Assembly: GCF_024124545.1 (NCBI RefSeq)
Contig: NZ_JAMXSF010000001.1
Location: 496,001-560,000 of the forward strand
Source: Pseudoalteromonas sp. XMcav2-N
GTDB lineage: Bacteria > Pseudomonadota > Gammaproteobacteria > Enterobacterales > Alteromonadaceae
Direction: 5' to 3'
Length of the DNA: 64,000 nucleotides
In this document: piece after piece, positions 34,541 to 53,991 of the stretch
Layout of the letters: each line of letters opens with the position of its first letter
Position numbering within the stretch: the stretch's first letter is position 1
Position numbers and translations under genes: made by a program
The notes under the pieces: generated by a model
What the model was told of the DNA's origin: nothing
The model's database searches: none
Seen by the model: only the letters and a program-made list of their open reading frames with translations

Positions 34541-34554
34541 TATTGTATACAATA
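34541..34554. promoter_or_regulatory. Palindromic operator copy 1 (TATTGTATACAATA)
   Basis: A perfect 14-bp palindrome in the 66-base divergent gap between the metallopeptidase lipoprotein and the peptide-type transporter. The identical 14 bases lie at 53978-53991 in the divergent gap of the hydroxyproline genes. GntR-family (FCD) regulators bind palindromes of this form, and such a regulator is encoded at 57.7 kb. Confidence 0.75.
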
Positions 34555-34576
34555 ATAATCAATAGGATCCAAGTCA

Positions 34577-36355
34577 ATGTCGATAAATACATCAACCAGG
34601 CAACGAGATACAGGGAGGCAAAGTACAGATGCTTCTGAATCAGGGTTTAGCCGTGCATTTTATGTCGCTAACCTCATGGAAATATTTGAGCGGTTAGCCT
34701 GGTATGGCTTTTTTGCGGTGTCTTCTGTGTATATGACCACGCCCAGTGCTCAGGGCGGGGTCGGATTTACCGATCTTGAGCGCGGCGCGGTACAGGGGAT
34801 CATCCCGTTTTTTCTCTATCTTTTGCCCGTACTGACTGGCGCACTGGGCGATCAGCTTGGCTATCGAAAAATGTTTTTGCTGTCATTCGCCATTATGGCT
34901 CCGGGGTACTTTTTACTGGGTCAGGCGCAAAGCTTTTGGCCGTTTTTTGCTGCACTAAGCCTGGTTGCTCTGGGGGCTGCTTGCTTCAAGCCTGTGGTAG
35001 TCGGCACTATTTCTCACAGTACTAACGACAGTAATCGCGGCCTTGGGTTTGGCATTTTCTATACCATGGTTAATATTGGCGGTTTTCTTGGGCCTTTGCT
35101 TGCTGGAGCGCTCAGGGCGATAAGCTGGGATGCTGTGTTTATGATGTCGGCATGCTGGATCTTGCTGAATTTTATTCCTGTTTTGTGGTTCTACCGTGAT
35201 CCGCCGAGCCTTAAGCGGGAGAAAGCGTCGCTTCGTGATGTTTTGCGAGAAGCTCAGTCTGTGCTTGGTAATGGCCGTTTTGCGTTGACGTTGTTAGTCG
35301 CCGTGGTGCTCTTGATGTGTTCAGGAATCGAGGCCCTCAGCTATATTGAAGCGTTTTCACTCATTGGGCTCTGGCTGGCTATTAATGTGATTTGGGATCA
35401 GACCGCCCGCAGAGTCACGCAGAAGAAAGCTGTCTGGTGGGCACAACCCATGAGGATCAGTAATATGCGATTTGCAGTGTATCTGGCCATTCTTGCAGGG
35501 TTCTGGACAGTGTACAACCAGCTGTTTTATACCTTGCCTTTGTTTATCCGTGACTATGTAGATACCCGAGATTTACTGAACTTTATAGCCTTTTTTGGCG
35601 AGGATGTCGTTGCTTTCTTTGCATATGTAGATAGCACGCAGCTACAAAATGCAGTTCAGGTATTACATTCACAATTACAAGCGGGCACTGTACCAGCCGT
35701 TGAAGCCCTGCGCTTGGAGTGGGTTCACCTTAAAGTAAATGTACCAACCCACGAATTGACAACCCTGATGGCTGATTTGAAAGCGTCGGAAACACTGACG
35801 AGCGCAAAGTTGCAACAGACCACGCTCGCACTGCTTGAATATCGGCAGATTAATCCCGAGTATTTGATCAACCTGGATTTCGCAGCCATTGTATTGCTCC
35901 AGATCCTGGTTAGTTATTTGTGTCAGCGGATAAAGCCGTTTTATGTGCTGACAGCAGGACTGGTTGTTATGTTTGGGGCCTTTTCACTCATGGCCATAGA
36001 GCTGACAGCAACGAGTGGGGCATTGATGGTTACAGTGATCTTGTTAATTGCATTGGGAGAAATGCTGACCTCACCTAAAAGTCAGGAGTACGTAGCCAGT
36101 ATCGCGCCGCCTTCACAGGCTGCCCTGTATATGGGCTACTACTTTGTGTCTATGGCTCTGGGCTTTTTGTTTGCCGGCTTCTTATCTGGGTGGAGTTATG
36201 CCACCTTGGTCCAGCAAGATGGCCGACCTGACCTAATGTGGGGGTTGTTTGGTGTATTGGCACTGGCGACGGCTATTGCTTTATACCTGTTTAACCGTTT
36301 TTTGATTCAAAGGCCTTTACAACAGGTTTCAGTGGAGGAACAAGCCGCTTTATAA
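34577..36355 (+). CDS. POT/MFS-family peptide-type transporter with soluble insert
   Basis: 592-residue inner-membrane protein of the major facilitator superfamily with features of proton-dependent oligopeptide transporters: an ExxER-like EIFERLAWYGF in TM1, GDQLGYRKMF between TM2 and TM3, and FYTMVNIGGFLGPLLAG. Residues about 325-430 are a long, mostly helical hydrophilic insert between C-terminal-half membrane segments that standard members lack. The start is 23 bases after the shared palindrome. It is followed by an Xaa-Pro-dipeptidase-like amidohydrolase, so import of Pro-containing di- or tripeptides is a sensible inference. Confidence 0.82.
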   Translation: MSINTSTRQRDTGRQSTDASESGFSRAFYVANLMEIFERLAWYGFFAVSSVYMTTPSAQGGVGFTDLERGAVQGIIPFFLYLLPVLTGALGDQLGYRKMFLLSFAIMAPGYFLLGQAQSFWPFFAALSLVALGAACFKPVVVGTISHSTNDSNRGLGFGIFYTMVNIGGFLGPLLAGALRAISWDAVFMMSACWILLNFIPVLWFYRDPPSLKREKASLRDVLREAQSVLGNGRFALTLLVAVVLLMCSGIEALSYIEAFSLIGLWLAINVIWDQTARRVTQKKAVWWAQPMRISNMRFAVYLAILAGFWTVYNQLFYTLPLFIRDYVDTRDLLNFIAFFGEDVVAFFAYVDSTQLQNAVQVLHSQLQAGTVPAVEALRLEWVHLKVNVPTHELTTLMADLKASETLTSAKLQQTTLALLEYRQINPEYLINLDFAAIVLLQILVSYLCQRIKPFYVLTAGLVVMFGAFSLMAIELTATSGALMVTVILLIALGEMLTSPKSQEYVASIAPPSQAALYMGYYFVSMALGFLFAGFLSGWSYATLVQQDGRPDLMWGLFGVLALATAIALYLFNRFLIQRPLQQVSVEEQAAL

Positions 36356-36460
36356 CGCTGTTTGTTCCGACGTTTGGCGAAGTTGGTCGCACTTAGGTTG
36401 CCTTTGTTGTCTTGCCATGACTAGACTGAGTCGACTAATTACTACAAAAAAGAAGCGAAT

Positions 36461-37738
36461 ATGTTGAAAACAACTCTGATCAGTGCCGCAGTGCTTATGG
36501 CCTGTGGCAATGCCTTTGCCGACACATTGGTACTCAATGCCGACGCTGCACTGGATGTTAACACAGGAAAACTCATCCGGCCCGCCACTGTGGTAGTCGA
36601 AGACAACACAATCGTGTCGGTATCACGAAGCAACCGTAAAGCCTACCCAGAAGATGCCACTGTGATTGATCTCAAAGGCCATACACTGTTGCCGGGGTTG
36701 TTTGATATGCATGTGCACCTTACCGGTGATGCACAAGTTCATGGTTACAAGCGCTTGCAGCGCACTGCACCGCGTTCGGCAATCACAGGAGTGCGTAACG
36801 CCAAGCGCACGCTTGCAGCAGGGTTTACGTCTGTGCGTAACCTGGGCGCTGGTGGCTATGCTGATCTGGCGCTGCGTGATGCTATCTATGATGGTGATGT
36901 ACCAGGACCTCGCATCTTCGCATCGGGCCCGGCGCTGGGTATAACGGGCGGTCACTGCGACAATAACCTGTTTACCCACGAGCACAAGGTGGTAGCACAA
37001 GGGGTGGCCGACGGCCCCTGGGCAGTCAGACAAAAGGTGCGTGAAAACATCAAATATGGTGTGGACGTAATTAAGTTCTGTGCAACTGGAGGTGTATTAT
37101 CCAAAGGCACTAAAGTGGGTGCACAGCAATATTCGTTTGAGGAAATGCAGGCGCTGGTAGCAGAAGTGCATTTACGTGGCCTAACCGTGGCTGCTCATGC
37201 GCATGGAACAGATGGCATTAAGTCAGCTATCCGTGCCGGGGTGGATTCAGTTGAACATGTCAGTTTTTTGGATGATGAAGCTATCAAGCTTGCCAAGCAA
37301 CATGGTACTTATTTCTCAATGGATATTTACAATACCGAATATATCCTGAGTGAGGGAGAAAAAGCCGGTATTTTACCCGAAAGCCTGGATAAAGAACGAA
37401 AAGTTGGCGGCACTCAACGAGCCAGTTTTACGAAAGCCGTTAAGGCCGGTGTGAACATGGTGTTTGGCTCAGACGGTGGAGTGTACCCTCATGGTCAAAA
37501 CGGCAAACAATTTAGCCGTATGGTCAAGTTTGGCATGAATGAGCTTCAGGCGCTTCAGGCCGCGACTATCAATTCTGCGACCTTGTTAAAGATGCAGGAC
37601 AAGCTCGGTTCTCTGGAGGCGGGTAAGCTGGCTGATATCATTGCTGTACCGGGAAACCCGTTAAAAGATATTCAGGTGATGGAAACCGTAACCCTGGTAA
37701 TCAAAGACGGCAAAGTGGAAGTGGATAAACGTCAGTAA
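36461..37738 (+). CDS. Exported amidohydrolase (Xaa-Pro dipeptidase-like)
   Basis: 425 residues with a signal peptide (MLKTTLISAAVLMACGNAFA). Amidohydrolase-superfamily barrel: metal motif DMHVHL near residue 86, bridging-Lys region VIKFCATGG, HAHG, EHVSF, and GSDGG near 340. The pattern resembles the Sgx9260/Cc2672-type Xaa-Arg/Lys/Pro dipeptidases, which cleave dipeptides with C-terminal Pro or basic residues. Located 105 bases after the peptide-type transporter on the same strand. A periplasmic location fits a dipeptidase acting before uptake. Confidence 0.83.
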   Translation: MLKTTLISAAVLMACGNAFADTLVLNADAALDVNTGKLIRPATVVVEDNTIVSVSRSNRKAYPEDATVIDLKGHTLLPGLFDMHVHLTGDAQVHGYKRLQRTAPRSAITGVRNAKRTLAAGFTSVRNLGAGGYADLALRDAIYDGDVPGPRIFASGPALGITGGHCDNNLFTHEHKVVAQGVADGPWAVRQKVRENIKYGVDVIKFCATGGVLSKGTKVGAQQYSFEEMQALVAEVHLRGLTVAAHAHGTDGIKSAIRAGVDSVEHVSFLDDEAIKLAKQHGTYFSMDIYNTEYILSEGEKAGILPESLDKERKVGGTQRASFTKAVKAGVNMVFGSDGGVYPHGQNGKQFSRMVKFGMNELQALQAATINSATLLKMQDKLGSLEAGKLADIIAVPGNPLKDIQVMETVTLVIKDGKVEVDKRQ

Positions 37739-37762
37739 ATTTAATTACGCTCAATTGAAAGT

Positions 37763-37788
37763 GGCCTGTGCGGTTTTACCCGCAGGCC
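37763..37788 (+). terminator. Hairpin after amidohydrolase gene
   Basis: GGCCTGTGCGG and CCGCAGGCC pair with one bulged base around a short T-rich loop, 25 bases after the stop. No clear T-run follows, so it is only a possible terminator between this and the convergent membrane-protein gene. Confidence 0.5.
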
Positions 37789-37821
37789 GCTTAACCTTAC
37801 TTGAAAGGGCGAATTAACAAA

Positions 37822-38271
37822 TTAAGACGCTGTGTTGTGAGGCTGCTTTTTTGCTTTGAGTGGATACAAGATGAGCAATGGTAGCATGAGTGCCAGCATC
37901 CACAGGTAAGCGCCAATATGCAACTGCAACAAGACCACACTTATGGAAGAGCCAATCATGGCAACGGGGTGGACGAAAAACACCACCACAATCACGGCAG
38001 TACAGAATCCCGCAATACGACCCAGTTTTTCCTTATAAGTGACCAGGCTTATCAGCCAACTGATATTTGCCAGCCAGGGTAATATCAGCAGTAGTCCGAG
38101 CCCGGGCATTTGAGGCAACATAACAAATCCAAAAAAAACCTGTGCAGGTCCCAGTATGAGTACTTCATAGCCATCGATAAGGTGTTCTGCTGAAGATTCC
38201 AAAGGAGAAATAGCAGGCAGGCATAGAGAAATAAGGTAAATGGCGATAGAAAGTTTGAGTGTTAGTTTCAT
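37822..38271 (-). CDS. Hypothetical membrane protein
   Basis: 149 residues with four hydrophobic segments (about 5-22, 38-58, 60-82, 110-140) and a basic C-terminus (LKAKKQPHN). Inner-membrane protein without recognised family; convergent with the amidohydrolase gene and divergent from the AraC-type regulator. Confidence 0.6.
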   Translation of the reverse strand: MKLTLKLSIAIYLISLCLPAISPLESSAEHLIDGYEVLILGPAQVFFGFVMLPQMPGLGLLLILPWLANISWLISLVTYKEKLGRIAGFCTAVIVVVFFVHPVAMIGSSISVVLLQLHIGAYLWMLALMLPLLILYPLKAKKQPHNTAS

Positions 38272-38483
38272 AGAGTCCTTTGTGATTTAAGGTGGTAAAA
38301 CATCACTTGCCCGCCACTCGCTGACTATCGTATATTTAATCTAATACTTTGTAAAATATACACTTTGATAGTTGTTCAATTCGCCTTGAATAACATGGCG
38401 TCTATTTCAGCTCGTTGGTTGCACCCCTTAGCTGTTTCCAATATGCTACCACTTGTCGTTTTTACGTTTTTGAGAGAGCTTAA

Positions 38484-39611
38484 ATGAGTGTGTTAGGCAC
38501 GCTGATCTACTCTAGTATGCTGGGTATGCTGTTACTGGCGTTGCTGCAGGCGGTTAATAAACCCCGACAGAGACAAACTACTTACCTGATAGCGTTACTC
38601 GCCTTACTGATAGTTCATGTGTGCGGTGAACTGGTAGTGTATTCCGGTGCATATCGTTACGTGCCCTGGCTGGTGGGTGCGCAGTTTCCCGTCCGTGTAC
38701 TGTTAGGTCCGGCACTGTATTTTTACGCCTGTGCGACCATGTCTCCTAATCCTGAGTTTTCGAAACGGACTTATGCATGGGCGCTATCTGGCCCGATTTT
38801 GGTGATGGCGGTGATGGCTCCGTTTGTGTCCGGCCTGAGTTCTGCTGAGAAACTGGCACTGGCGGACCCGGCAACCCGAGATCCTCAGCACTACAAGCTG
38901 GCTTTATTCTCTTGCTTTGCCTCAACGCAGATCTTTGTTTTGTACACAGCGGTTTATTTTATTAGCGCTTTAAAACTTCATGCCCGTCACCGGCAGCAAT
39001 TAATGGAACGTTTTTCTGACATTGAGTCACGTTCAATCAGTTGGTTTGCCGTCATCTTATTGCTGTGGGGCTTGGTTTGGCTGTGTTATGCCACCGGTTA
39101 CATTTCGGTGTTCTTGGGTTGGCGCTGGTTTGGACAGGGGGTGATACTACCGATTTTTGAGGCTTGCGTACTACTTGCCTTCGCCTATCTGGCACTTAAA
39201 CAACCGATTTTGACTCCGGCCGACAAAGGAGAGCCGAGAGCCCGGCAGCCTCGTACATCGACAGTAAGCCTGGATAGAATGCAACGTATTTCGGCTAAAC
39301 TGGAAAAAGCGATGGAAGAAGAGCAATTGTTTATGGAAGAGGATTTGTCTTTGAATAAACTTTCCAGTGCAATTGGCGTAAGCGAAAATCACATTTCAGA
39401 AACTCTGTCTCAATTAATGCAGACCAACTTCTTCCAGTTTGTAAATCGCTATCGAATATCACAAGCTGAAAAATTACTCAAAGAAACAGACATGCAGGTG
39501 TCGAGCATTCAGTTTGAAGTGGGTTTTAACTCTAAGTCGACCTTTAACACCGCGTTTAAGAAAGCCACGGGATTGACTCCTTCGTTATATCGTAAGCAAC
39601 AGCATAACTGA
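38484..39611 (+). CDS. AraC-family regulator with 7TM-like membrane domain
   Basis: 375 residues: about seven hydrophobic segments in residues 1-240 (membrane sensor), a charged linker, and a C-terminal AraC/XylS DNA-binding domain (about 265-372) with two HTHs (LNKLSSAIGVSENHISETL and VSSIQFEVGFNSKSTFNTAF). A membrane-embedded regulator. Its last 56 bases overlap the 3' end of the convergent membrane-protein gene. Targets unknown. Confidence 0.88.
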   Translation: MSVLGTLIYSSMLGMLLLALLQAVNKPRQRQTTYLIALLALLIVHVCGELVVYSGAYRYVPWLVGAQFPVRVLLGPALYFYACATMSPNPEFSKRTYAWALSGPILVMAVMAPFVSGLSSAEKLALADPATRDPQHYKLALFSCFASTQIFVLYTAVYFISALKLHARHRQQLMERFSDIESRSISWFAVILLLWGLVWLCYATGYISVFLGWRWFGQGVILPIFEACVLLAFAYLALKQPILTPADKGEPRARQPRTSTVSLDRMQRISAKLEKAMEEEQLFMEEDLSLNKLSSAIGVSENHISETLSQLMQTNFFQFVNRYRISQAEKLLKETDMQVSSIQFEVGFNSKSTFNTAFKKATGLTPSLYRKQQHN

Positions 39612-40278
39612 TTAAAACAGCTGAAATAAATGCCGCTAAACATACTCTGGTGCTTTTGAATTGCCAGCTTTGCGCCTGACCGATTCTGTATAGGATTAAC
39701 CCTGTGATAATCACGGTCGGCTCATAGAAAAACCTGGGAGGTAAATCAAATGGAAAGAAAAACAGACCATGGATCAGGCGACCAAGTCCCGGAGGCAGCA
39801 GCATTACAGATGCAAGCAGTATCCAGTGTGCGTGTTTGTGTGAAGAGCCGGCGCTGAAAATTGCCCGATACATAAAGAATGCGAAGAGCGGGAAAAGGGC
39901 GATATCAAGACTCAACACCAACCTGAATATAACGCTGGTGGTGACACGTTCCTGGTATACGGTGGTGTATAAAACCACCGTTGAGACAATAAAAGCCAGC
40001 AAGACAAAAGCAAGGCAGTATCCAAGTGTTCGGTGCGGTATCAAGTGCTTTTGGTAAACCAGTGTTGCCTGGCTGAGCATACCGGCCACCCAGACAAAGG
40101 ACAAAGCGCCGTGCCAGTGATGCATCGTAGTCAGTGATGAAAACTGCAGAATATAACTGGGGATAAACCCCAGCAAAATTATCAGCCCAATGACCCAAAG
40201 CCAGGTTACATAGAATGCAAAGGGTAAGTCAGGGGTCTGCGTCTGTGACGGATATTTATAATCGATTACGGAACCCAT
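39556..40278 (-). CDS. Hypothetical multi-pass membrane protein
   Basis: 240 residues with about seven hydrophobic segments. His-rich features (TMHHWHGALSF, HKHAHWILL, LIHGLFFF) could bind haem or metal but no family is assigned. Its ATG overlaps the stop of the upstream S66 peptidase gene by one base (TAATG), so the two are translationally coupled. Its 3' end overlaps the convergent AraC-type gene by 56 bases, which is unusual. Confidence 0.65.
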   Translation of the reverse strand: MGSVIDYKYPSQTQTPDLPFAFYVTWLWVIGLIILLGFIPSYILQFSSLTTMHHWHGALSFVWVAGMLSQATLVYQKHLIPHRTLGYCLAFVLLAFIVSTVVLYTTVYQERVTTSVIFRLVLSLDIALFPLFAFFMYRAIFSAGSSHKHAHWILLASVMLLPPGLGRLIHGLFFFPFDLPPRFFYEPTVIITGLILYRIGQAQSWQFKSTRVCLAAFISAVLISYAVAYDITKESIPWLS

Positions 40279-41261
40279 TAGTTGTTTTGCCGTGTATGGA
40301 TGTTTATGTTTACTCTACCATCCAATGCCTTGAGCGTGCATTGTCCGCCAATGGGAACGGTGAAAATAGGTGTTGTATGACCAAAGTCGAGATTGCACAC
40401 GACCGGGCAAGATGTCAGTTGCTCAAAACTGCTCAGGAGCTCTGTCAGGTCGTTAAGGTCTACTTTGCTGTCGGCTTGAAAGCGGCCGACCACTAAACCG
40501 GCAATATGCTCAGCGCCCTGATGAGACAACAAAGATTGCAGGTTACGTTCAAATTCCGTCAGGGTCAGGTCACCCAGCAGGTTATCTTCTTCGACAAATA
40601 AAACCGCTCCGGTTAAATCTGGCATGTAACGGGTACCCTGCAATAAATTGAATGAGCAAAGGTTGCCACCCAAAATGGTGCCTTCACACGTCCCTTTGTT
40701 GACAATGATGGGGCCCGGGTTGGGTATAAAAGTGCGACTGGTTTGATCGATAAACCAAAGATCATCAGACCAAAACTCGCTGGCGCTAAGCGCATAGTCC
40801 GTGCCACCCAGTAAGGCGAGCTCAAAATGTCTGAGGGTAAATTCCAAACCCTGTTGCATGCCAAAAGAGGAAAAATGCGGACCCAGATAAGTAATCTGGC
40901 CTGTTATGGCATAAATAGCGTTGAGCAGTACGGTGATGTCGGAGTATCCGCAAAGCGGCTTTGGGTTATCCCGGAGTATGTCCCAGTTTAGATGGTCGAG
41001 CGTCCTGTTTGCGTTGTGGCCGCCAATGGTACTTAAAATGAGCGCAACTTCTGGGTCTGCAAAGGCGTCATTCAAATCTTTTGCCTTATCGAGTATCAAC
41101 TGGGCTGTTGTAACTTCTCGGTGTATGTAATGGGGAGCAAAGTCGCAATGGATACCCAGCCCAGCCAGTGTTTCAATGGCGGTGGCCGTTGTTTCTCGGG
41201 ACAAGATCTCAGCAGATCTGCTGGGGGATACAATGCGTGCCCGTTTTTTATGTTCGTTCAT
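40278..41261 (-). CDS. S66 family LD-carboxypeptidase / MccF-like peptidase
   Basis: 327 residues, usual family length. The Ser-Glu-His catalytic set is visible: nucleophile Ser in CGYSDIT (near residue 106), Glu in FVEEDNLL (near 225) and His in LDFGHT (near 295). Family members trim LD-bonds of murein tetrapeptides or, as MccF, inactivate microcin C7-type nucleotide antibiotics by cleaving an acyl-sulfamoyl bond; sequence alone does not decide. RBS AAGGAA. Coupled to the following membrane-protein gene. Confidence 0.88.
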   Translation of the reverse strand: MNEHKKRARIVSPSRSAEILSRETTATAIETLAGLGIHCDFAPHYIHREVTTAQLILDKAKDLNDAFADPEVALILSTIGGHNANRTLDHLNWDILRDNPKPLCGYSDITVLLNAIYAITGQITYLGPHFSSFGMQQGLEFTLRHFELALLGGTDYALSASEFWSDDLWFIDQTSRTFIPNPGPIIVNKGTCEGTILGGNLCSFNLLQGTRYMPDLTGAVLFVEEDNLLGDLTLTEFERNLQSLLSHQGAEHIAGLVVGRFQADSKVDLNDLTELLSSFEQLTSCPVVCNLDFGHTTPIFTVPIGGQCTLKALDGRVNINIHTRQNN

Positions 41262-41291
41262 ATGTTTCCTTATACCTGATTACACTGCATG

Positions 41292-42068
41292 TTAGGGCGT
41301 CTGATTTGGTTGCAGAAAAAACTGCCGGATGATGGGGCCGACCAGCGCCGGTAACTCCTGATGAGCGGCATGGGTGGTGAAGGGAATATTTGCAAAGCTG
41401 ACGTCTTTAATACGCGCTTTGAGTGCAACGGCTTCTTCCAGAGAAAAAAGAAAGTCGTTGTCACCTCGCATGATCAGGGTAGGGCAATCAATTTGTGCCA
41501 CCAAATCACAAGGGTAGCCAGACTCCTTGGTATCAAGCCAGAGCGTTTTTACTGCCTCAACCAGGGCAGGAAAGTTCGGGGCTGGGTTCGATGCCTGATA
41601 ATAAGCGACTCCCTCAGGAAACAGCTCAGTCCACATTTCAACGGTTAGGCCGCGCAGTTTTTCAACCGCCGGATCACCTTCTTCCAGACGCCAGGATGAT
41701 CCCAGTGTCAGCAATCGAGTAACCTGAGCCGGGTTTTGCACCGCCAGACGATAGGCGACTATCCCGCCATCGCTGAAACCAAACAGAAAGTAGCGTGAAA
41801 TACCCAGCCAATCAAGCAATGCTTGCACGTCGCTTTGATATTGTGCATAGCTCAAAGGTACATCGCCCAGGCTTGATCTTCCCTGGCCTCGCAAGTCAAT
41901 GGATATCAGTCGGAAATGAGTACCCAGATATTCAGTGAGTACATCCAGATCCCGGGTTGAGCCCAAACCTCCGTGCAGCATGGCCAGAGGAAAACCGTCC
42001 GGATTACCACTTTGCTCATAGTGAATCGATATGCCATTGATATCTGCATAGGCTGACTGTTTTGTCAT
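41292..42068 (-). CDS. Alpha/beta hydrolase
   Basis: 258 residues. Oxyanion region HGGLGSTRD, nucleophile elbow GFSDGG (Ser near 98), and a late His in FTTHAAHQELP near 236-240. A lid region lies about 130-190. Likely an esterase- or lactonase-type enzyme of unknown substrate. RBS AAAGGG seven bases before the ATG. It is one of a run of small minus-strand enzymes, 30 bases upstream of the S66 peptidase gene, so possibly cotranscribed. Confidence 0.85.
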   Translation of the reverse strand: MTKQSAYADINGISIHYEQSGNPDGFPLAMLHGGLGSTRDLDVLTEYLGTHFRLISIDLRGQGRSSLGDVPLSYAQYQSDVQALLDWLGISRYFLFGFSDGGIVAYRLAVQNPAQVTRLLTLGSSWRLEEGDPAVEKLRGLTVEMWTELFPEGVAYYQASNPAPNFPALVEAVKTLWLDTKESGYPCDLVAQIDCPTLIMRGDNDFLFSLEEAVALKARIKDVSFANIPFTTHAAHQELPALVGPIIRQFFLQPNQTP

Positions 42069-42116
42069 GATAGAGCCCTTTATGTGGGGTATTGATACTG
42101 TAGTTTGTGAACAGCT

Positions 42117-42416
42117 TTATGAGTGGGTTCGATCTTCCACTTCGTCAAAGGTTTCAACGGAAATTCGCTCAGCCAACAGGCGCATCTTATGCATTTGTTC
42201 GGGGTTGCTGTTATCCCAAAAGTGCACCCAATCTGCACGCGAACGCCATTTGGCTATAGTTAGCACTTTATTTGGGTCATCAGAGCTTTGTAGCATAAAA
42301 CTGCCCAGCGCACCCTGAACGGACTTATGAATTGCATCCATTGTCGCGCGCCATGTTGCCTGAAACTCGGCGATATTTTCAGTGGGTACTTGCCACCGAT
42401 AAATTACCCTAAACAT
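42117..42416 (-). CDS. Antibiotic biosynthesis monooxygenase (ABM) domain protein
   Basis: 99 residues, ferredoxin-like fold of the ABM family (MFRVIYRWQVPTENIAEF, then VLTIAKWRSRADWVHFWD). Such small proteins are cofactor-free oxygenases or haem/quinol-related enzymes; the real substrate is unknown. The ATG at 42416 was chosen because GGGAG lies eight bases upstream and the domain starts there; an upstream in-frame ATG would add 57 low-quality residues. Confidence 0.82.
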   Translation of the reverse strand: MFRVIYRWQVPTENIAEFQATWRATMDAIHKSVQGALGSFMLQSSDDPNKVLTIAKWRSRADWVHFWDNSNPEQMHKMRLLAERISVETFDEVEDRTHS

Positions 42417-42595
42417 AGGTATGTCTCCCTGAGTTAGCCTGCTCATACTAGCGTAATATTGACACTGATATTGGTTATGTCTTTGAGTTTTCAGACTATC
42501 ATCAGGCGTATTGATACGCTCGCATTTTTTGTACGTGTGCCTATATCTGCTGACAGAGTGTGTCACTGACCGCTCTAAATTTGGCACGGAACAGG

Positions 42596-42967: not shown

Positions 42968-43158
42968 TTCTTTTTCCGCTTTTTAAAGGGTCAATTTAGT
43001 ATGGCACGTTTGTGCCATGCTTTTATCCTAAGCTATGTGATCACATACTTAGCTGTTTTCTCGTCAGACATACCATTGCGTCATATGTACCTGAGCGTTA
43101 CTTTAATTTGGCAGTATTATTTTACTTTTTGGTGAATATCCGGGCGGTAATTAAGCTA

Positions 43159-43590: not shown

Positions 43591-43702
43591 ATGGCTTTTC
43601 CTTAAAGTTTCAATTTCACAGTGTGATACCTGCCGTAACAGCTGCATGTTTTTATCGGGTATTTAAACATTGAGTGCGGGGAACTGGCTAAATAAGGCAT
43701 AG

Positions 43703-45859: not shown

Positions 45860-47554
45860 ATGTTAAAGAAGCTAAAAATTGGTGCGCGAATATATCTAAT
45901 GGGTACCTTACAGCTTGTCCTGATGCTGGTCATGGGTTTGGTTGCAGCCTCTCAAATGGTAAAAATTGGGTATGAGCTTTCTGATATTGCGGAAGAAGAC
46001 ATTCCGCTTGCAAACTTTGTTACTAAAATTACTGAACATCAGCTTGAACAGGCAATCATATTTGAACGAGCATTGTTTCATGGCTCGCTATCTTATCAGG
46101 GGCAAGCCGGAGCTGAGCAGACGTTACAGGAATTGAAACAACAATGGTCGCTGCTAAATAACAAGATAAATCAAGAATTCAAAGTCATAGAAGCATTTAC
46201 GCAGCAAGCCATAACAAAGGTTCATTCAGACGAAGTCGAAGCCAAATTCAGGCAAGTGGCTGACTCAATAAAGTTAATAAATAAACACTATCAGCACCTT
46301 GTAAAGGAGTCTGATCATGTCTTGAGTGTTATAGGTAACGTTTCTATGCAAGAGCTGACAGACAAAGCGCACAAAGTAGAAGCGCTGGAAGACAACCTGA
46401 AAGACGAAACCATAGCCTTACTTGATGATATTCAGGCTTTTACTCAGAAAGCGGCTTTAAAGGCAGAAAGAGATGAACAGAATGGATTAAAATGGATATT
46501 GATAACGCTGGGTGTTGCGTTAGTTTTTAACTTGATTGCTCCTTTCGTGGTAGGGCATTCGATTACCAGCCCGATTTCAAATTTGTCAGAACGACTGCAT
46601 GAGATAAGCGAGGGAGATGGCAATCTCACCATTTTGCTCAATGACACTGCCAAAGATGAAACTGGTGATGTAGCAAGGGCTTTCAATCAGTTTTTGAGCG
46701 TTTTAAGGGGGTTGATTTCTAAAACCAATAAACACGCTTTTGAACTGGGCAGTTCATCGCATCAGGCCTTAGAAATCATGCGCCGAACGGCTACGGATTT
46801 AGAACAGCAAAAACATCAAACTGCGTTGGTTGCGGCGGCAGTGACCCAAATGGCGGCAACAACAAAAGAGGTTGCACAGAACACCAGTCATGCAGCAGAT
46901 GTCACACAGCAAGTTATTGGGAGTGTAGCAAGTGGCAAAAAGGTTGCGGAGGACTCGCAGTATATTATGACTCAGATGGCCGAACAGGTGTCTGAAGTAT
47001 CAAACGTGATAGCAAACCTGGTTGCTGAAACAAACAATATTGGCAGTGTATTGGCATCTATTCAGGGGATTGCGGAACAAACCAATTTACTGGCACTCAA
47101 TGCGGCGATAGAGGCTGCGAGAGCAGGGGAAAGTGGCAGAGGTTTTGCGGTGGTTGCTGATGAGGTCAGAACGCTGGCTCAGCGAACTCAGTCTGCAACT
47201 GTCGATATTCAGGATCTACTGACCCGGCTTCAGAGTGAGGCCAATGAGGCTGTACTCAGTATGAGCAAAGGCAGCGATAGTACCCAGCTGTGTTTAGAGA
47301 AAAGTGCACTGGTTAGCAAGGCATTTGCTGATGTTGAAAACTCCGTAGAAGAAATTGTTCAGCTAAATGTTCAAATTGCTACTGTGGCTGAGCAGCAATC
47401 TGTGGTGACGGAAGAAATAAATCAAAATCTTGTGAACATCAGCACATTGGCGGACGAGACCGCGCAGGGAGCAAAGGAAACGGAAAGTGCCAGTGAGAGT
47501 ATGAAACTGAGGGTGAGTCAATTACAGACTGGTCTGGATTCTTTTAGTGTTTGA
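45860..47554 (+). CDS. Methyl-accepting chemotaxis protein
   Basis: 564 residues: TM1 about 12-34, a helical periplasmic ligand domain of about 170 residues, TM2 about 213-233, HAMP, then a cytoplasmic signalling domain. The highly conserved hairpin tip ([19 protein letters not shown] and [18 protein letters not shown], about 406-443) is intact, so it should couple to CheA/CheW. The ATG at 45860 follows GGAG; an upstream TTG at 45845 would add five residues. Ligand unknown. Confidence 0.95.
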
Positions 47555-47669
47555 TAAACACAGGAAGCTTACATTGTATTCAGAGTGGCCTGCAGCGTCT
47601 GGTTTATCATACAACACTTAAAGAAAGAACGGGAAGGCACTTTGGTCTAATTGTCAAAAGCGTCTTCGC

Positions 47670-47837
47670 TCATGCCTGCCTGATATAGATTTGAAGCGAG
47701 TTTTTTATATCAGGGACCGTTGTGATGGACTCGCGCCAATTGACTGCAATACCATTGAATCCAGAAAATGCGCCGGCAATTTGACCACCTATTGTCGCTG
47801 TTGTATCGGCATTATTGCCAAATTTGTGGTACGTAAT
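47670..47837 (-). pseudogene. ADP-ribosylglycohydrolase remnant (C-terminal)
   Basis: On the minus strand, 55 codons read HKFGNNADTTATIGGQIAGA followed by a further W-containing stretch (SGFNGIAVNWRES) and a stop. This matches the C-terminal metal-binding block of DraG-type ADP-ribosylglycohydrolases (typically GGDxDTxAAIAGAxxGA, then a W near the end). An in-frame stop lies just upstream and no further N-terminal similarity was found, so about 85% of the gene is lost. One metal-ligand Asp is also changed (GNNAD rather than GGDTD). Confidence 0.7.
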
Positions 47838-47853
47838 TCAGCCCCGTTCAAAC

Positions 47854-47878
47854 AAAATCCCGGCTCGGTGGCCGGGAT
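47854..47878 (-). terminator. Terminator of the sugar dehydrogenase gene
   Basis: ATCCCGGC and GCCGGGAT form a perfect 8-bp stem around a six-base loop. On the minus strand it is followed by TTTTG. It begins about 15 bases after the stop of the PQQ-type dehydrogenase. Confidence 0.8.
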
Positions 47879-47892
47879 GAGGGTATGGCTGG

Positions 47893-49029
47893 CTACTTGG
47901 TTTTGGGTATCACTTTATAGATCCCGCTGCCATCTATTCCCAGGTAAAGATCACCGTTGGGATGGGTCGCTATGCTGCGCACACGGCCGGCGCCTTCGAA
48001 GAGCTTACTGTGACCAACCACTTTATTGCCGTCAAGTTCAACCAGTACCAGATGGGCGAATTTCATTGAACCGACAACCAGATGGCCTTGCCATTGTGGG
48101 TATTTGTCGCTGGTAATAAATTCCATACCGGATGGTGCAATAGAAGGAACCCATACCCAGTCAGGTTGTTGCATTCCATCTCGGGTGGTTTCGTCGGTGA
48201 TCTTTGTTCCGTTATAGTTAATTCCGTATGTGATCACAGGCCAGCCATAGTTCAGGCCCGGCTTGATGATATTGATCTCATCGCCGCCCCTAGGGCCATG
48301 CTCATGGGTCCAGATCTCGCCCGTTTTGGGGTGCATAGCCATACCTTGTGGGTTGCGGTGGCCATAGGAATACACACTTTTACGCGCATCCTTTTGTTTT
48401 GCAAATGGGTTTGAATCGGGGATAGTGCCGTCGGCATTGATACGATGAATTTTACCTGCATCATGATCTAAGCGCTGCGGGTGCACGTCCCGGTTGCCCC
48501 TGTCTCCAATCGAAAAGTACAGGTAGCCATCTTTGTCGAATTCAATGCGAGAGCCGAAATGAAAAGAGGGCTTGGTATTTGGAAAACCATCAAATATTAA
48601 CTGCTTATCAACCAGCTTCATATCTTTGAGGCGTGCACGCATGATAGACGTATTGCTGCCTTTTTCTTCGCCTTCAAAGCCGGAATAAGAAAAATAGATC
48701 CAACCGTTTTCGCTATAGTCAGGGTCTACCTCGATATCCAGCAGGCCACCCTGGCGCTCAGCATGTACCTCTGGCACACCTTCGATCGGTTTGTCGACCA
48801 GCTTGCCCTCTTTGATCAGGCGAAGTTGCCCCGATCTGTCGGTGACCAGCAGCTCTTTGTCGTTTAGCCACACCATTCCCCAGGGGATCTGAATACCCCT
48901 CGCAACCAGTTCCAGTTGATAGTTATCAGCGCTCTTTGCAACTGGGATAGTTTGAGGCTCAACCGCCTGGATGCTCTGGGCAGAGATAAAAAATAAGCTT
49001 AATGCAATGTTGTTTAATGTTTTCTTCAT
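47893..49029 (-). CDS. PQQ-dependent aldose sugar dehydrogenase-like protein
   Basis: 378 residues with a signal peptide, so periplasmic. Six-bladed beta-propeller of the glucose/sorbosone dehydrogenase family (YliI/Asd-like): IPWGMVWL, EGGLL-type block RQGGLLDIEVDPDY, YGHRNPQGMAMHPKTGEIW, HEHGPRGGDEINI and the late PSIAPSGMEF. Expected to oxidise aldoses using pyrroloquinoline quinone. No pqq biosynthesis genes in the window. Single gene with its own terminator. Confidence 0.93.
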   Translation of the reverse strand: MKKTLNNIALSLFFISAQSIQAVEPQTIPVAKSADNYQLELVARGIQIPWGMVWLNDKELLVTDRSGQLRLIKEGKLVDKPIEGVPEVHAERQGGLLDIEVDPDYSENGWIYFSYSGFEGEEKGSNTSIMRARLKDMKLVDKQLIFDGFPNTKPSFHFGSRIEFDKDGYLYFSIGDRGNRDVHPQRLDHDAGKIHRINADGTIPDSNPFAKQKDARKSVYSYGHRNPQGMAMHPKTGEIWTHEHGPRGGDEINIIKPGLNYGWPVITYGINYNGTKITDETTRDGMQQPDWVWVPSIAPSGMEFITSDKYPQWQGHLVVGSMKFAHLVLVELDGNKVVGHSKLFEGAGRVRSIATHPNGDLYLGIDGSGIYKVIPKTK

Positions 49030-49472
49030 GCTTGCTCAACTTAAGTCGACAGAAAGAGGCTCACAGATTAGCGCGTTTTGGTCAAAAATGTCACCGGGTG
49101 CGGTAAGCGGCAGGTTGCCAGCGGTCAGAGCGGGTGAAAATTGTTCGAACAATTCTTCTGGGCTAAAAATGGCTCAGAATTGCCAATAAACCGTTTACTG
49201 GTAACTATTCACTAACTTTAATGAGGGCGGTATCTCACGGGGTATATATAAGTAATTGATAATTAGCTTTATTATTCTTGGTTCTCTTGATGTTTTAGGT
49301 AAGAAGATAAAACAGCATAACTGCATTTTCACTACAGAATTTACAAACTGAAACCTCCATTGCACAGTGTTTTACATCCCTTACATTCGGGCGAAATTCT
49401 TTAATTTGAACGTGTCAGCGTTGTCATATAGGCTTGCGCGAATTTTTTAGCTTTACCCCGGAATGTGTCTCT
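49030..49472. other. 443-base divergent intergenic region
   Basis: Separates the sugar dehydrogenase from the divergent porin and holds both promoters. It contains a perfect 16-bp palindrome AATTGTTCGAACAATT at 49139-49154, about 110 bases before the dehydrogenase ATG, a possible operator. One such palindrome is expected by chance in a window this size, so the case is weak. Confidence 0.45.
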
Positions 49473-50705
49473 ATGTCATTTAATTCCCGACGCACTATTT
49501 TGTTTTCGAGTGCCCTGATCATTGGCTCTGCCTCCGTTGATACGAACGCGACAGAGTTAGATACGCTGAAGCGTGAACTTGTTAATTTGCAGCAAAAAGT
49601 GGTACAGCTTGAAGCACAACAAGAAGCGGACAATAAACCTGCTGAGCAGGGTGTAAAGGTAGGCGGTGCTATTCGCTTTAATTATGGTATGAACTCCTAC
49701 GATCAGGACAGTGAGCGTCGTGGTGGTGACATCGACTTTGACCTGGCTCGTATTAATTTATCAGGTAAGGTTACTGATATCGGTATCAATGCGGAAGTGC
49801 GATTTCATGACTACATGCGGGTTGTGAAGTTTGCTTACCTGGACTACGACCTCACACCGCAGTGGCAGGCTCAGCTCGGCCTGGCTCCCGTACCATTTGG
49901 TAATACGCCGGTTGCATCACACAGCTACTTTATGACACCCAATTATTTCGTTGGTCTGGAAGAGGACTATGATTTAGGTCTGGTGTTCAAACGTACTATG
50001 CAGGATAACTGGCAACTGGATCTGGCCTTTTTCAAAAACGACGCTCACGGTGGCATAGATGGTGCGGCGGAAGATCGCAAAGACCGGTACTCGGTGGATA
50101 TCGTTGGTCTGCGCACTGCGGGTGAGTACGTTTACGACACGCCTGAACAAAAGCTGGCTGAGTATAACACTCTGGCAGGGCGCTTTGCCTATCAGCTGGA
50201 TCACGCTTTTGGTACTACCCAGATCGGATTCTCAGCACTGCATGGCGGTCTGGACAATGGCATCTCTCGGGCCGGCAATTATCACGCCTGGGCTGTGCAT
50301 GCGTCTAGTCGATATCACCAGTGGTATGTCCATTTTCAACACACCGAGTATGATTATCAGGTCGATGAATTTACCCAGATTGCGGTTGCTGCAAATGCGA
50401 TGTATGACACCATAGCGGCAAAGGCTTCGTCGACGACTATGGGCGTGTCCTATGACTGGCAGGTTGAGTTTGGACCGTTAACTGAGCTGACCGTTTATAA
50501 TGACTTTGGCTTAATGCATGGCAAATCTGATGACAGCGCAAACACCTGGATGAATATCACCGGTATGGCTGTGGCGGCAGGCCCTGTATTTGCCTATGTC
50601 GATTTGGTACATGCCAAAAATCAACCTTTTGTTGGTGGCACGCTTGTAGGTGACAGTGAAGGCTCTGAGCGCCGTTTTAACATCAATGTAGGCTATTACT
50701 TCTAA
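49473..50705 (+). CDS. Outer-membrane porin
   Basis: 410 residues. Signal peptide, then a short coiled-coil-like stretch (ELDTLKRELVNLQQKVVQLE) and a 16- to 18-strand-type beta barrel with alternating hydrophobic/polar residues, ending in NINVGYYF with the C-terminal Phe typical of outer-membrane proteins. This is the DcaP/phosphate-porin-like class with a periplasmic coiled coil. Start at 49473 (MSFNSRRTILFSSA) gives a normal signal peptide; an ATG at 49434 would add 13 residues. Solute unknown. Confidence 0.88.
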   Translation: MSFNSRRTILFSSALIIGSASVDTNATELDTLKRELVNLQQKVVQLEAQQEADNKPAEQGVKVGGAIRFNYGMNSYDQDSERRGGDIDFDLARINLSGKVTDIGINAEVRFHDYMRVVKFAYLDYDLTPQWQAQLGLAPVPFGNTPVASHSYFMTPNYFVGLEEDYDLGLVFKRTMQDNWQLDLAFFKNDAHGGIDGAAEDRKDRYSVDIVGLRTAGEYVYDTPEQKLAEYNTLAGRFAYQLDHAFGTTQIGFSALHGGLDNGISRAGNYHAWAVHASSRYHQWYVHFQHTEYDYQVDEFTQIAVAANAMYDTIAAKASSTTMGVSYDWQVEFGPLTELTVYNDFGLMHGKSDDSANTWMNITGMAVAAGPVFAYVDLVHAKNQPFVGGTLVGDSEGSERRFNINVGYYF

Positions 50706-50720
50706 TCCCGAACACCACAC

Positions 50721-50747
50721 AACCTCTGAGTATTCAGCTCAGAGGTT
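50721..50747. terminator. Hairpin between porin and peptide gene
   Basis: AACCTCTGAG and CTCAGAGGTT form a perfect 10-bp stem with a seven-base loop. No T-run follows on either strand, so termination would be weak; placed between convergent genes. Confidence 0.55.
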
Positions 50748-50764
50748 GGGCCGTGCAGACTGAA

Positions 50765-50968
50765 TTACAGCTTGCAGTAATCCCCAGAGCAAGCCAGTTT
50801 TGAGCACTGCTGCGAGCAGTCCACCAGCGACGTAATCACACATAACACGCCTGCAGAAATAGACGCAGCTTGCTGACCGCCAGCAACCTGAGGTGTGGCG
50901 TGCTTTGCCAATCCAGCGTGTTTATCCGATAAACGTTTTAGTTGGGTCTTTTTAACCTTTAGTTTCAT
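50765..50968 (-). CDS. Putative RiPP precursor peptide (Gly-Gly leader, Cys-rich core)
   Basis: 67 residues. The N-terminal part is a Lys/Leu-rich leader (MKLKVKKTQLKRLS...) ending in TPQVAGG at residues 25-31, the double-glycine cut site used by C39 peptidase ABC exporters. The core of about 36 residues has five Cys (43, 51, 55, 60, 65), seven Ser/Thr and a hydrophobic start, as expected for a lanthipeptide-like or disulfide-rich bacteriocin. A strong RBS AAGGA lies six bases before the ATG. No modification enzyme, peptidase-transporter or immunity gene is adjacent. Assignment rests on leader pattern and RBS; the chemistry is unknown. Confidence 0.7.
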   Translation of the reverse strand: MKLKVKKTQLKRLSDKHAGLAKHATPQVAGGQQAASISAGVLCVITSLVDCSQQCSKLACSGDYCKL

Positions 50969-51325
50969 GATTATTCCTTGTTGATATGGGTATGTAATAG
51001 TCTCGGGCAGCGTCTTTTTTGGGTTGATTGAGTGCGCCGCCCACTGTATTTAATCGCATACAATTTAATTGGTCAAATAATTTTACTAAGTAAAAATATA
51101 TTCAATGAATACAAAGCAGTAGTGTATTTTTGAGTGAGTATTTCACGGAAAGTTGGTCGACTCACAAAGTGATTGGGAAAATCATTTACCATGATGCATT
51201 GTTTTTATTTGTGTTTAATTGCTCAATGCCACTTGAAGTGAACCTGTGTTGAGTGCGAAGACGTGTATTGATTAAAGCAGGTTGGTTTATGGCGGCGCCG
51301 TTTGGAGCACGGCGCCTGAGGTTGA
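50969..51325. other. 357-base region upstream of peptide gene
   Basis: AT-rich, with no protein gene. It carries the promoter region of the Gly-Gly peptide (minus strand) and, at its right end, a GC-rich hairpin after the M24 peptidase gene. Nothing else recognised. Confidence 0.5.
51294..51316 (-). terminator. Hairpin after M24 peptidase gene
   Basis: GGCGCCG and CGGCGCC form a perfect 7-bp stem around a nine-base loop, ten bases past the stop on the minus strand. No U-tract follows, so it may act as a 3' end stabiliser rather than a full terminator. Confidence 0.5.
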
Positions 51326-52540
51326 TTAGTTATTTAACCCAAATGGATCGTCGATTGAATACGCTGGTTGGGTAAACCACTTTGGTCCGTCTGGCGTCAT
51401 GTAAAAATGATCTTCCAGTCGGATGCCAAATTCACCCGGAAGGACCAGCATAGGTTCATTAGAAAAGCACATACCGGCCGCCAGCGGCTGCGGATTGTCT
51501 TTTACCAGATACGGCCACTCATGAATGTCCAGTCCTATACCATGTCCGGTGCGATGTGGACAGCCAGGTAACTGATAGTCAGGCCCCAGGCCTTGTTTAG
51601 CCAGATAGTTGCGGGCAGCGAAATCGACATCGCCACAAGGAGTGCCAATTTGCGCGGCCTCGAATGCGGCGAACTGGGCATTTTTTTCGTGTTGCCACAT
51701 GGTGCGTTGATGCGCTGTTGGTTCACCGAATACATAGGTCCGGGTAATATCACTCAGATAGCCATGGAGCTTACAGCCAGTATCTATTAATACAACATCG
51801 CCCTGTTTTAGCGTCTGTGGGTCTTTTACACCATGCGGAAAAGAGGTGGCTGTGCCAAATAACACGATGCAAAAATAACTGCCGGTTGCACCCACTTTAC
51901 GGTGCGCTTCATTGATGAAGGCTTCCACCTCTGTGGTGGTGATCCCCTCATGAAGTATCGAGGCTGCTGCTTTGTGCACTGCGAGCGTCATGTCCATGGC
52001 CCGCTGGATAAGGGCCAGCTCTGAGTCAGACTTATGCATGCGACAGTGGGCCGTGACGCACTTGGCGTTGATCAGGTTGAGCGCAGATCCGGCCTGACGA
52101 ATGCCATCGGCGATAAAAAAAGCGGCGCTTTCATCAATGCCCAGCGTCGCATCCGGTGAAACGCCCAGATCAGTCAGCACCTTGGTCAACAGGCTGTAGG
52201 GGGACTGCTCTTCCTGCCAGGTATGCATAGGGCCTTCTATCACCTGATAGTCCTTGACCGAACCGACTTCAAAAAACGGTACTATAAACTGTACTTCGCC
52301 TTGCGCTGGTAAAATAGCGCCGACCATACGCTCGCTCGGATACCACTGTAACCCCGTAAAATACTTTAAGTTAGTGCCAGCATTCAGATAAACAGCAGCA
52401 ATATTGTGCTGGCGCATAAAGGCTTGCGCTGTTTCTATGCGGTGTAAATACTCTTCGGGTTTAATTGCAACCACATCCCGTGTCATATCTGTCAGTGCGG
52501 CCAGTGCCGCTTCACGATTCTGGTAACCTATGCCTTTCAT
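51326..52540 (-). CDS. M24-family Xaa-Pro peptidase
   Basis: 404 residues: N-terminal creatinase-type domain (about 30-165) and a C-terminal pita-bread metallopeptidase domain. The five metal ligands are visible: Asp in VVLIDTG, Asp in LSDITRTY, His in RTGHGIGLDIHE, Glu in FSNEPML and Glu in IRLEDHF. Cleaves an N-terminal residue before proline (Xaa-Pro aminopeptidase/prolidase type) in the cytoplasm. It follows the D-amino-acid dehydrogenase by 22 bases in one operon. This placement suggests release of Pro or hydroxy-Pro from imported peptides. RBS AGGAAT. Confidence 0.9.
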   Translation of the reverse strand: MKGIGYQNREAALAALTDMTRDVVAIKPEEYLHRIETAQAFMRQHNIAAVYLNAGTNLKYFTGLQWYPSERMVGAILPAQGEVQFIVPFFEVGSVKDYQVIEGPMHTWQEEQSPYSLLTKVLTDLGVSPDATLGIDESAAFFIADGIRQAGSALNLINAKCVTAHCRMHKSDSELALIQRAMDMTLAVHKAAASILHEGITTTEVEAFINEAHRKVGATGSYFCIVLFGTATSFPHGVKDPQTLKQGDVVLIDTGCKLHGYLSDITRTYVFGEPTAHQRTMWQHEKNAQFAAFEAAQIGTPCGDVDFAARNYLAKQGLGPDYQLPGCPHRTGHGIGLDIHEWPYLVKDNPQPLAAGMCFSNEPMLVLPGEFGIRLEDHFYMTPDGPKWFTQPAYSIDDPFGLNN

Positions 52541-52562
52541 AGTGATTCCTGTTTGTTATTCG

Positions 52563-53828
52563 TTATTGAAAACGCGCAATACTGTAGGGGCCAATATCCA
52601 GCGTTGTTGGTTGACTTGCAATGCACTGTGCGATGAGCTCACTGGTGATTGCGGCCTGAGTCAGGCCCAGATGCTGATGTCCCAGTGCAAAGTAAATGCT
52701 CGGATGATGCGGAGCTTGTCCTATCACCGGCAAAGAGTCGGGCAGTGAGGGCCGCGATCCCATCCAGTGTTCGCCCTGTTGCAAATTGTTGTTGTCCTTG
52801 AGTATGGCCCGGGCATGGGTCAGTAACATCTCTGCACGCTCATAATTAGGGCGGGTGTTCAGACCTGCAAACTCCACGGTCCCTGCCAGACGAAGACCAT
52901 GTTGCATGGGGGTCATGATAAACTGGCGATCGGCAGAGGCCACCGGACGGCTCAGGCCACTTGAGACCGATAGCATAGTGTGGTAACCACGCTCTGCTTC
53001 GATTGGGAGTTTATAGCCAAGCTGAGCACACAGAGTTTTGCTCCATGCCCCGGTGGCCAATACAAGCCGGTCAAAGGTGCGGCAACTTTGTGTCAGTGTG
53101 GTTAGCTTTACCTGAGCCTGGTCAGGGCTGCTTGAACAATCACCCTGGGGGGTGATAGCACATACTTCGGACTTAACGAAGGTTCCTCCCAGTGCTGTAA
53201 ACTGCTCAAATAAAGCCTGACTTAGCTGATAAGGGTCGGAGGTATGGCCCACTTCAGTAAAGTACAGCGCGTAGTGAATACTGCGACTCAGGCCTGGCTC
53301 CAACGCAAAGAGTTGTGTGTGGTCCAGCAACTCAACGGCAACCCCTTGTTGCTGGTACTTATGCTGTATGGCGCGGATCTCTTTGATTCTGTCATGTTCA
53401 AAGGTCAGCAGGCTGCCATTCAGGCTGATGTTGCTCTCAAAGTCCTCCTGCAAAAGCTGCCTGAACGCCGGTAAGGCTGCTTCGTTTAGTGCCCGCAAAG
53501 CCCGGGTATGGCGTTTAAACCGGCTCGGCAGCATATTCAGGCAAAAGCGGCTCAGCCAGGGAAGTGCTTTAATAAAGTATTTGTGATCAATGCGCAGGGG
53601 ACTGAGCTTATCGAGCAGCATCATGGGTAAGCGAGGCAGCAGGGCCTTGTCAGCCAACGGAAATACTTGCTCGGTTGCGAAGTGACCGGCATTACCCCGC
53701 GAACATTGCTCACCAATACCTGCCGGGTCATACAGCGTGATACTGTGTCCCTGACGGGCGAGTTGTAAGGCATTACACAAGCCAATTACACCAGCTCCCA
53801 CAACTGCAATTTGAAGTGAATGTGTCAT
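52563..53828 (-). CDS. FAD-dependent D-amino acid (D-hydroxyproline) dehydrogenase
   Basis: 421 residues. The N-terminal Rossmann motif VVGAGVIGLCNALQLARQGH binds FAD; the DAO/DadA-family fold continues to the C-terminal LGHQHLGLTQAA block. Next to the epimerase and deaminase genes it most likely oxidises cis-4-hydroxy-D-proline to 1-pyrroline-4-hydroxy-2-carboxylate, passing electrons to the respiratory chain. It is transcribed away from the deaminase gene, sharing a divergent region that holds the 14-bp palindrome. Confidence 0.9.
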   Translation of the reverse strand: MTHSLQIAVVGAGVIGLCNALQLARQGHSITLYDPAGIGEQCSRGNAGHFATEQVFPLADKALLPRLPMMLLDKLSPLRIDHKYFIKALPWLSRFCLNMLPSRFKRHTRALRALNEAALPAFRQLLQEDFESNISLNGSLLTFEHDRIKEIRAIQHKYQQQGVAVELLDHTQLFALEPGLSRSIHYALYFTEVGHTSDPYQLSQALFEQFTALGGTFVKSEVCAITPQGDCSSSPDQAQVKLTTLTQSCRTFDRLVLATGAWSKTLCAQLGYKLPIEAERGYHTMLSVSSGLSRPVASADRQFIMTPMQHGLRLAGTVEFAGLNTRPNYERAEMLLTHARAILKDNNNLQQGEHWMGSRPSLPDSLPVIGQAPHHPSIYFALGHQHLGLTQAAITSELIAQCIASQPTTLDIGPYSIARFQ

Positions 53829-53977
53829 TGTTATTCTCGTTTGTCAGATTGCATGTTATCAACCAGATGCCACTGTAAAGCTAACCAAAAAATAAACCGT
53901 TTAATTTTCATTGATTTACTAATTTGTGTGCTGCAATTTTTGACGTTCTGGCAATTTTCTTAAATTTGGATATTGAT

Positions 53978-53991
53978 TATTGTATACAATA
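53978..53991. promoter_or_regulatory. Palindromic operator copy 2 (TATTGTATACAATA)
   Basis: Perfect 14-bp palindrome, identical to 34541-34554, 41 bases before the ATG of the DapA-family gene, within the divergent region of the hydroxyproline locus. It is the probable site for the GntR regulator at 57.7 kb. A degenerate form (TAATGTATCCCAAT at 57654-57667) precedes the regulator gene itself. Confidence 0.78.

Follow-up and report, generated by a model that had tools for sequence, protein, structure and literature searches.

The DNA analysed here, called the window, is a stretch of 64,000 nucleotides from Pseudoalteromonas sp. XMcav2-N (contig NZ_JAMXSF010000001.1, positions 496,001 to 560,000). 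It contains two identical copies of the 14-bp palindrome TATTGTATACAATA, at 34541-34554 (box 1) and 53978-53991 (box 2). The palindrome is very probably the operator of HypR, an FCD-type GntR regulator encoded at 57688-58356 on the plus strand, and the genes beside it point to a HypR regulon for the use of collagen or gelatin. Binding and repression by HypR, its inducer, the activities of the enzymes and growth on collagen are predicted from the sequences. An initial annotation of the window had already proposed a single regulon under this protein for collagen or gelatin use. This is still the best reading, as the box tracks the regulator over 60 genomes of the genus.

The palindrome and its probable regulator

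Both copies match the palindrome exactly, and the gene coordinates place both in short intergenic regions between divergent genes, as had been noted at the outset. Box 1 lies in a gap of 66 bp between the genes at 32108-34510 (minus strand) and 34577-36355 (plus strand), and box 2 in a gap of 203 bp between those at 52563-53828 (minus) and 54032-54946 (plus). No further match to TATTGTATACAATA with up to two mismatches is present elsewhere in the 64-kb window. In dinucleotide shuffles of the window at the same threshold the mean was 0.17 matches, and only 2 of 100 shuffles reached two, which agrees with the claim that a chance repeat is unlikely. A genome-wide scan, which had been suggested as a check, covered 5,703,353 bases in 44 contigs (the window is C11:496001-560000), with the reversed pattern as control. 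It found three exact copies and four more with one mismatch, against 0 matches for the control; abundance in unrelated intergenic regions was not seen. The looser form WATTGNATNCAATW occurs at 6 places in the genome (one of them C2:119687) and its control at 0. The box core TTGTATACAA has, ahead of the hyp genes, the GT-2nt-AC spacing that is printed for HypR sites in PMC4494728. A scan for the 10-bp core with one mismatch was uninformative because it gave 194 places, compared with 149 for the control. Three occurrences of TTGTATACAA, at C6:97379, C19:39150 and C42:156910, were set aside, their flanks being unlike the box; that at C6:97379, about 200 bp ahead of a POT-like gene, may yet be a site, but it is a T/A-rich palindrome just past the end of a gene.

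The protein encoded at 57.7 kb matches PF00392 and PF07729 above the cut-off, which bears out its assignment as an FCD-type GntR regulator. The genome encodes four FCD proteins. Judged by eye from neighbours and sequence, one of the other three is found beside prp-like genes, a second beside pdh-like genes, and the last is FadR-like. The fourth, HypR, is encoded within the hyp operon behind box 2; the position of box 2 is shared by relatives, and hypR runs with hyp genes in many relatives inside and outside the genus. In the 60 Pseudoalteromonas genomes a hypR orthologue was taken as the best match of a genome at E 2.1e-58 or better (at least 49% identity), the best match of the next genome being 3.4e-15; four of the orthologous frames carry one stop codon each. 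The 38 genomes with an orthologue contain 142 sites of the core 12-mer, 2-9 per genome, while the 22 genomes without one contain only 2, as single sites in two genomes (the other 20 have none). The reversed 12-mer gave 3 and 4 matches in the two groups, respectively. No probability is attached to this co-occurrence, because these are related genomes in which the pathway appears and disappears along with the regulator. The combination seen here, of an FCD/GntR regulator encoded with hyp genes, a palindromic site with GT-2nt-AC spacing, and confinement of that site to regulator-bearing genomes is what is looked for in a HypR regulon.

Among the 38 genomes that have a hypR orthologue, 16 were examined for the neighbourhoods of all their core sites, 74 in total. 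A labelled target was found at 58 sites, and at 48 it is a homologue of a candidate target of the present genome. The latter count is the stricter one, since ten labels (M9, M12B and one GH18 chitinase-like protein, which may be there by chance) derive from these same sites. The targets include hypO/hypD, TonB receptors (some recognized at only about 27% identity), M43 and M9 peptidases, a pair of M24 peptidase and reductase, and the metallopeptidase of box 1. In the family as a whole the exact 14-mer is present in 49 of 147 genomes and 27 of 52 genera, and the reversed control is absent from all 147. Forty exact sites outside the genus, chosen from at least 65 and spanning 33 genomes and 23 genera, were inspected as well. 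Thirty are located at hyp genes, M9 collagenases (9 of the 40), TonB receptors, DPP4-type or related genes, although one of these (L257) is doubtful, with a DHDPS (dihydrodipicolinate synthase) match of 29%.

Two other settings of the core in the genus were observed. Conserved palindromes between convergent genes (L128, L137 and L140, in G024, G042 and G049) lie between a transporter and AstB and are not upstream of a visible gene. In two further genomes (L187/G044 and L188/G009) a core box lies between a gene for a 429-residue lipoprotein-like protein, which has no Pfam family, and a large gene, in L187 a histidine kinase.

Genes at the boxes of this genome

Box 1 is a putative operator 30 bp before the gene of a metallopeptidase and 22 bp before that of a transporter. 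The metallopeptidase (32108-34510, minus strand) is a predicted lipoprotein of 800 residues with HETMH at 188-192, Glu211 and a predicted domain fold like that of M9 collagenases. The transporter (34577-36355, plus) is of the POT/PTR2 peptide type, with matches to PF00854 (37.0 bits, cut-off 27) and MFS_1; its match to TIGR00924 is under the cut-off of that model. It is followed by an amidohydrolase-type Xaa-Pro dipeptidase (36461-37738, plus; NF051886, 613.6 bits, cut-off 500).

Box 2, the second putative operator, is upstream of both hypD and hypO, at distances of 40 bp and 149 bp respectively. The hypO product (52563-53828, minus; PF01266) is of the DAO family and resembles D-hydroxyproline oxidases or dehydrogenases, its role being suggested by context. 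Downstream of it is an M24 peptidase of the Xaa-Pro type (51326-52540, minus; PF00557, PF01321). On the plus strand hypD (54032-54946; PF00701), with its start taken at ATG and not at TTG 53924, encodes a DHDPS-family protein, a predicted pyrroline-4-hydroxy-2-carboxylate deaminase. The following hypE (54951-55952) encodes a 4-hydroxyproline epimerase (NF010578, 575.8 bits, cut-off 376) with a Cys/Cys pair in the alignment. The aldehyde dehydrogenase HypH (56007-57500; PF00171) is predicted from context to act on alpha-ketoglutarate semialdehyde, and hypR follows. A gene resembling TonB-dependent siderophore receptors (60091-62544) follows the hyp operon on the opposite strand, with no box nearby.

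A third exact box, at C11:471083, precedes genes for a TonB receptor carrying a carboxypeptidase-regulatory domain, a member of the proline racemase family, an M24 peptidase and a pyrroline-2-carboxylate reductase. The reductase (L008:16346-17281) is above the equivalog cut-off of NF004793 (392.6 bits, cut-off 322). The racemase-family protein (L008:14231-15259) has Cys/Thr (MCGH, SPTGTG) where HypE has Cys/Cys (SPCGTG). According to PMC4113996, the Cys/Thr pair is described, with exceptions, for trans-3-hydroxyproline dehydratases, and pyrroline-2-carboxylate reductase belongs to the ornithine cyclodeaminase superfamily. This pair and the superfamily of the reductase suggest that the regulon probably takes in the breakdown of 3-hydroxyproline as well as 4-hydroxyproline. 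The identity of the dehydratase is a prediction only, because the best match, NF045511, misses the curated cut-off (306.8 bits against 540). The regulon first proposed is supported for both loci of the window; it had missed the third exact copy and the branch for 3-hydroxyproline.

Of the four boxes with one mismatch, that at C12:51913 is 101 bp ahead of a TonB receptor gene, which is followed by a DPP4-type peptidase gene. The box at C22:315171 is 228 bp ahead of an M43 peptidase with PKD, GEVED and PPC domains; in six genomes a core site is found some 200-209 bp ahead of M43 relatives that are 75-77% identical. The box at C12:66362 precedes a 529-residue protein with a weak reprolysin match, of which a 51% identical relative also has a core site (G013); it is plausible only as a site of the regulon. 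The last one, at C14:13834, lies ahead of the gene of a small peptide with a GG leader. Also near the C12:51913 box is a protein of 1474 residues (L010:11751-16175) that by eye resembles nonribosomal peptide synthetases, with aminotransferase-like and transporter-like genes around it.

The metallopeptidase and the collagen-like peptide

For the secreted metallopeptidase of the initial annotation, the predicted 800-residue lipoprotein with HETMH, no Pfam family is found at E 0.001. At E up to 10 only sub-threshold scraps of DUF1570 and M1 appear, and there is no match to PF01752 (M9). Searches of PDB sequences gave nothing convincing. The 39 named relatives, the nearest being Pseudoalteromonas rubra records, are mostly from Pseudoalteromonas, with others from Bowmanella, Pseudoteredinibacter/Cellvibrionaceae and one small contig of a Bermanella metagenome-assembled genome that resembles a Pseudoalteromonas locus. 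HETMH is kept in all 39. A box lies within 400 bp upstream in every one (13 exact, 23 with one mismatch and 3 with two), compared with 0.7% of shuffled upstream regions at up to two mismatches. This count is not one of independent events, because 20 of the 39 loci lack an exact box and several groups consist of strains that are nearly identical. Within 10 kb, the transporter is found in 26 of the 39 loci and HypR in 10.

A full-length AlphaFold model gave no useful fold match. The model of the peptidase domain (mean pLDDT 68, below 50 just before the HExxH helix; pTM 0.72) was compared by VIA. Rows 1-13 are M9 collagenases with Z 14.1-12.2 over 215-239 residues at 10-14% identity; M1 aminopeptidases follow at Z 10.3 and lower, and the row list leaves other folds possible. 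The best E in Foldseek was 5.4e-03. The predicted domain fold, HExxH and the W..EG.A[ED] layout are shared with M9 collagenases (PDB 7wss and 9l5o, and ColG/ColH/ColT), while the distance from HExxH to the Glu is 19, in contrast to 24 in the aligned M9 proteins, and a Pfam M9 match is lacking. Two alignments were used: A1 with 36 of the 39 relatives (L105, L120 and L122 were left out as a duplicate, a short frame and a near-duplicate) and A2 with 34 of these 36 (without L103 and L115). Profile-profile comparison with M9 gave a weak result: for 35 columns around HExxH the probability was 2.8%, with P 0.016. All 35 members of A2 have a weak match to flagellinolysin (NF033876) around HExxH, at 18.9 bits against a cut-off of 205, but the 800-residue protein is without flagellin parts. 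PMC7643111 describes the flagellinolysin domain as remotely homologous to the peptidase domains of clostridial collagenases. From the model the protein is called collagenase-like, but not an M9 member. The initial annotation had placed it in the regulon without recognizing this predicted fold.

The peptide gene at the C14:13834 box, also overlooked initially, encodes 59 residues with a GG leader and a GPPGPP core (L012:9582-9758, which is C14:13581-13757, minus strand), and the box is 76 bp before it. Orthologues occur in 7 of 108 genomes of the genus. In all seven a box with one mismatch lies 74-76 bp ahead of the gene, and GPPG[PA]P is kept, in a core HIGPPGPP or HIGPPGAP with three Cys. Some are near-identical strains, so that the independent cases number about four (five neighbourhoods of four kinds). 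The mismatch is at the same position of the box in all of them, and boxes varying in this way are also seen ahead of the metallopeptidase gene in relatives. The peptide has no match of useful score in Pfam or NCBIfam. Among 11 other small open reading frames (one with a doubtful GG leader) none has a box (best 4-6 mismatches) or GPPG, and no convincing further GG-leader peptide was found beside core sites in 70 regions of the genus. Many short peptides, such as L201-L214, that combine a common MKLKL...TPxxAGG leader with diverse Cys-rich cores are found genus-wide; this genome has five that match with E at most 0.01, and those tested are unnamed in Pfam and NCBIfam. It is possible, though somewhat doubtful, that the 59-residue product is an exported collagen mimic controlled by HypR and that the 800-residue lipoprotein represents a new family of cell-surface collagenase-like peptidases.

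Alternative explanations and known HypR regulons

Most likely, a HypR dimer binds the palindrome and would repress by covering the promoters beside it, until hydroxyproline or an intermediate of the pathway releases it. Release would turn on the surface and secreted peptidases, TonB receptors, the peptide transporter and Xaa-Pro peptidases, together with breakdown of 4-hydroxyproline and, through the third box, of 3-hydroxyproline; the net outcome would be the use of collagen or gelatin. Several points weigh against this proposal. Promoter-like hexamers overlap or flank both window boxes, a layout that would suit a repressor, but these matches are near chance (2 where the mean is 0.6, and 3 where it is 1.2). 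There is no box upstream of hypR itself (best 4 mismatches). The site 67 bp upstream of the only Pfam M9 collagenase of the genome (C33) has 3 mismatches, with one half-site intact; three M9 relatives have exact cores 67, 73 and 77 bp upstream. The co-occurrence is not independent evidence of binding by HypR, as the genomes are related and acquire or lose the regulator jointly with its pathway. In the genus 16 of the 74 core sites are without a labelled target, among them three located between convergent genes; at least two core sites are inside genes, and some labels, those of TonB receptors, rest on 24-37% identity. Outside the genus 10 of 40 sites are without a labelled target: one (L221) is at the start of a TonB-receptor frame, three are at oxaloacetate-decarboxylase-like genes and six are without explanation.

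The few sites between convergent genes or inside genes are also what might be expected of chance or of a structural element such as a terminator or repeat. That explanation is rejected as practically negligible in view of the rarity of the palindrome, the reversed-pattern controls, the shuffles and its repeated presence beside homologous genes of 23 other genera. It is very unlikely as well that another FCD/GntR regulator (PrpR-, PdhR- or FadR-like) binds the palindrome, with only an indirect link to HypR. The TKGT/ACMA site type is common to FadR-subfamily proteins according to PMC4494728, and a related sequence, TTGTCTACAA, lies directly before the prp-linked regulator. However, all 60 genomes of the genus match the regulator somewhere, so FCD/GntR paralogues persist in the 22 genomes without HypR, which hold almost none of the sites, and hypR itself belongs to the operon that follows box 2. 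A wider amino-acid or peptide regulon, in which HypR would answer to proline or peptides generally and collagen would be one source, is less probable than a collagen regulon but deserves more weight than the other two. Peptidases of the general Xaa-Pro and DPP4 types are among the targets, as are TonB receptors; PMC5343134 describes a regulon of proline/4-hydroxyproline utilization; and an exact box precedes a predicted three-gene oadGAB-like run, recognized by eye, in three genomes of two other genera (L234, L239 and L258). In contrast, M9 collagenases and both hydroxyproline routes are located at boxes, and the proline dehydrogenase gene (C39) is not among the near-exact sites of the genome.

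The HypR regulon for collagen or gelatin use can be compared with known systems. A HypR regulon of Proteobacteria, with a GntR-family HypR and hyp targets, was predicted in 2016 (Leyn et al., PMC5343134), and HypR is also named for Shewanella in PMC3223726. According to PMC5343134, the regulon of Alteromonadales comprises collagenases, the dipeptidases PrdP/AmpP/YpdF, the di/tripeptide permease PdtP and a TonB-dependent transporter. The regulator is thus not of a new kind, and the initial annotation had missed that much the same regulons were in print. The regulator, hyp genes, collagenases, dipeptidases, permease and TonB transporter are common to both. Added here are the M9-like peptidase without a Pfam family, the M43 and DPP4-type peptidases and the GG-leader peptide, and a 3-hydroxyproline route is predicted where the paper inferred an ornithine cyclodeaminase. 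These additions look new, although some may stand in the supplement of PMC5343134 or in RegPrecise. The HypR of Streptomyces coelicolor, also FCD/GntR, was shown at the bench to repress hydroxyproline genes and an M9 collagenase gene; its motif, CTNTGC(A/C)ATGTCAC, is different and less symmetric, and the lineage is another one (PMC6608401). The open-access papers listed on collagen-like bacteriocins and on collagen regulation in Pseudoalteromonas gave nothing on the 59-residue peptide or the 800-residue peptidase.

The hint of two sites in the window becomes a proposed collagen programme of the whole genome. A candidate family of collagenase-like peptidases without a Pfam model is named, and the ornithine cyclodeaminase of the printed regulon is suggested to be instead a part of a 3-hydroxyproline route. 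The predicted exported peptide links a collagen-like sequence to the use of collagen. If HypR does control such a peptide, an encounter with collagen would release a collagen-like peptide, which might, as a guess, be a bacteriocin entering rivals through their uptake of collagen peptides, or a decoy, or a signal.

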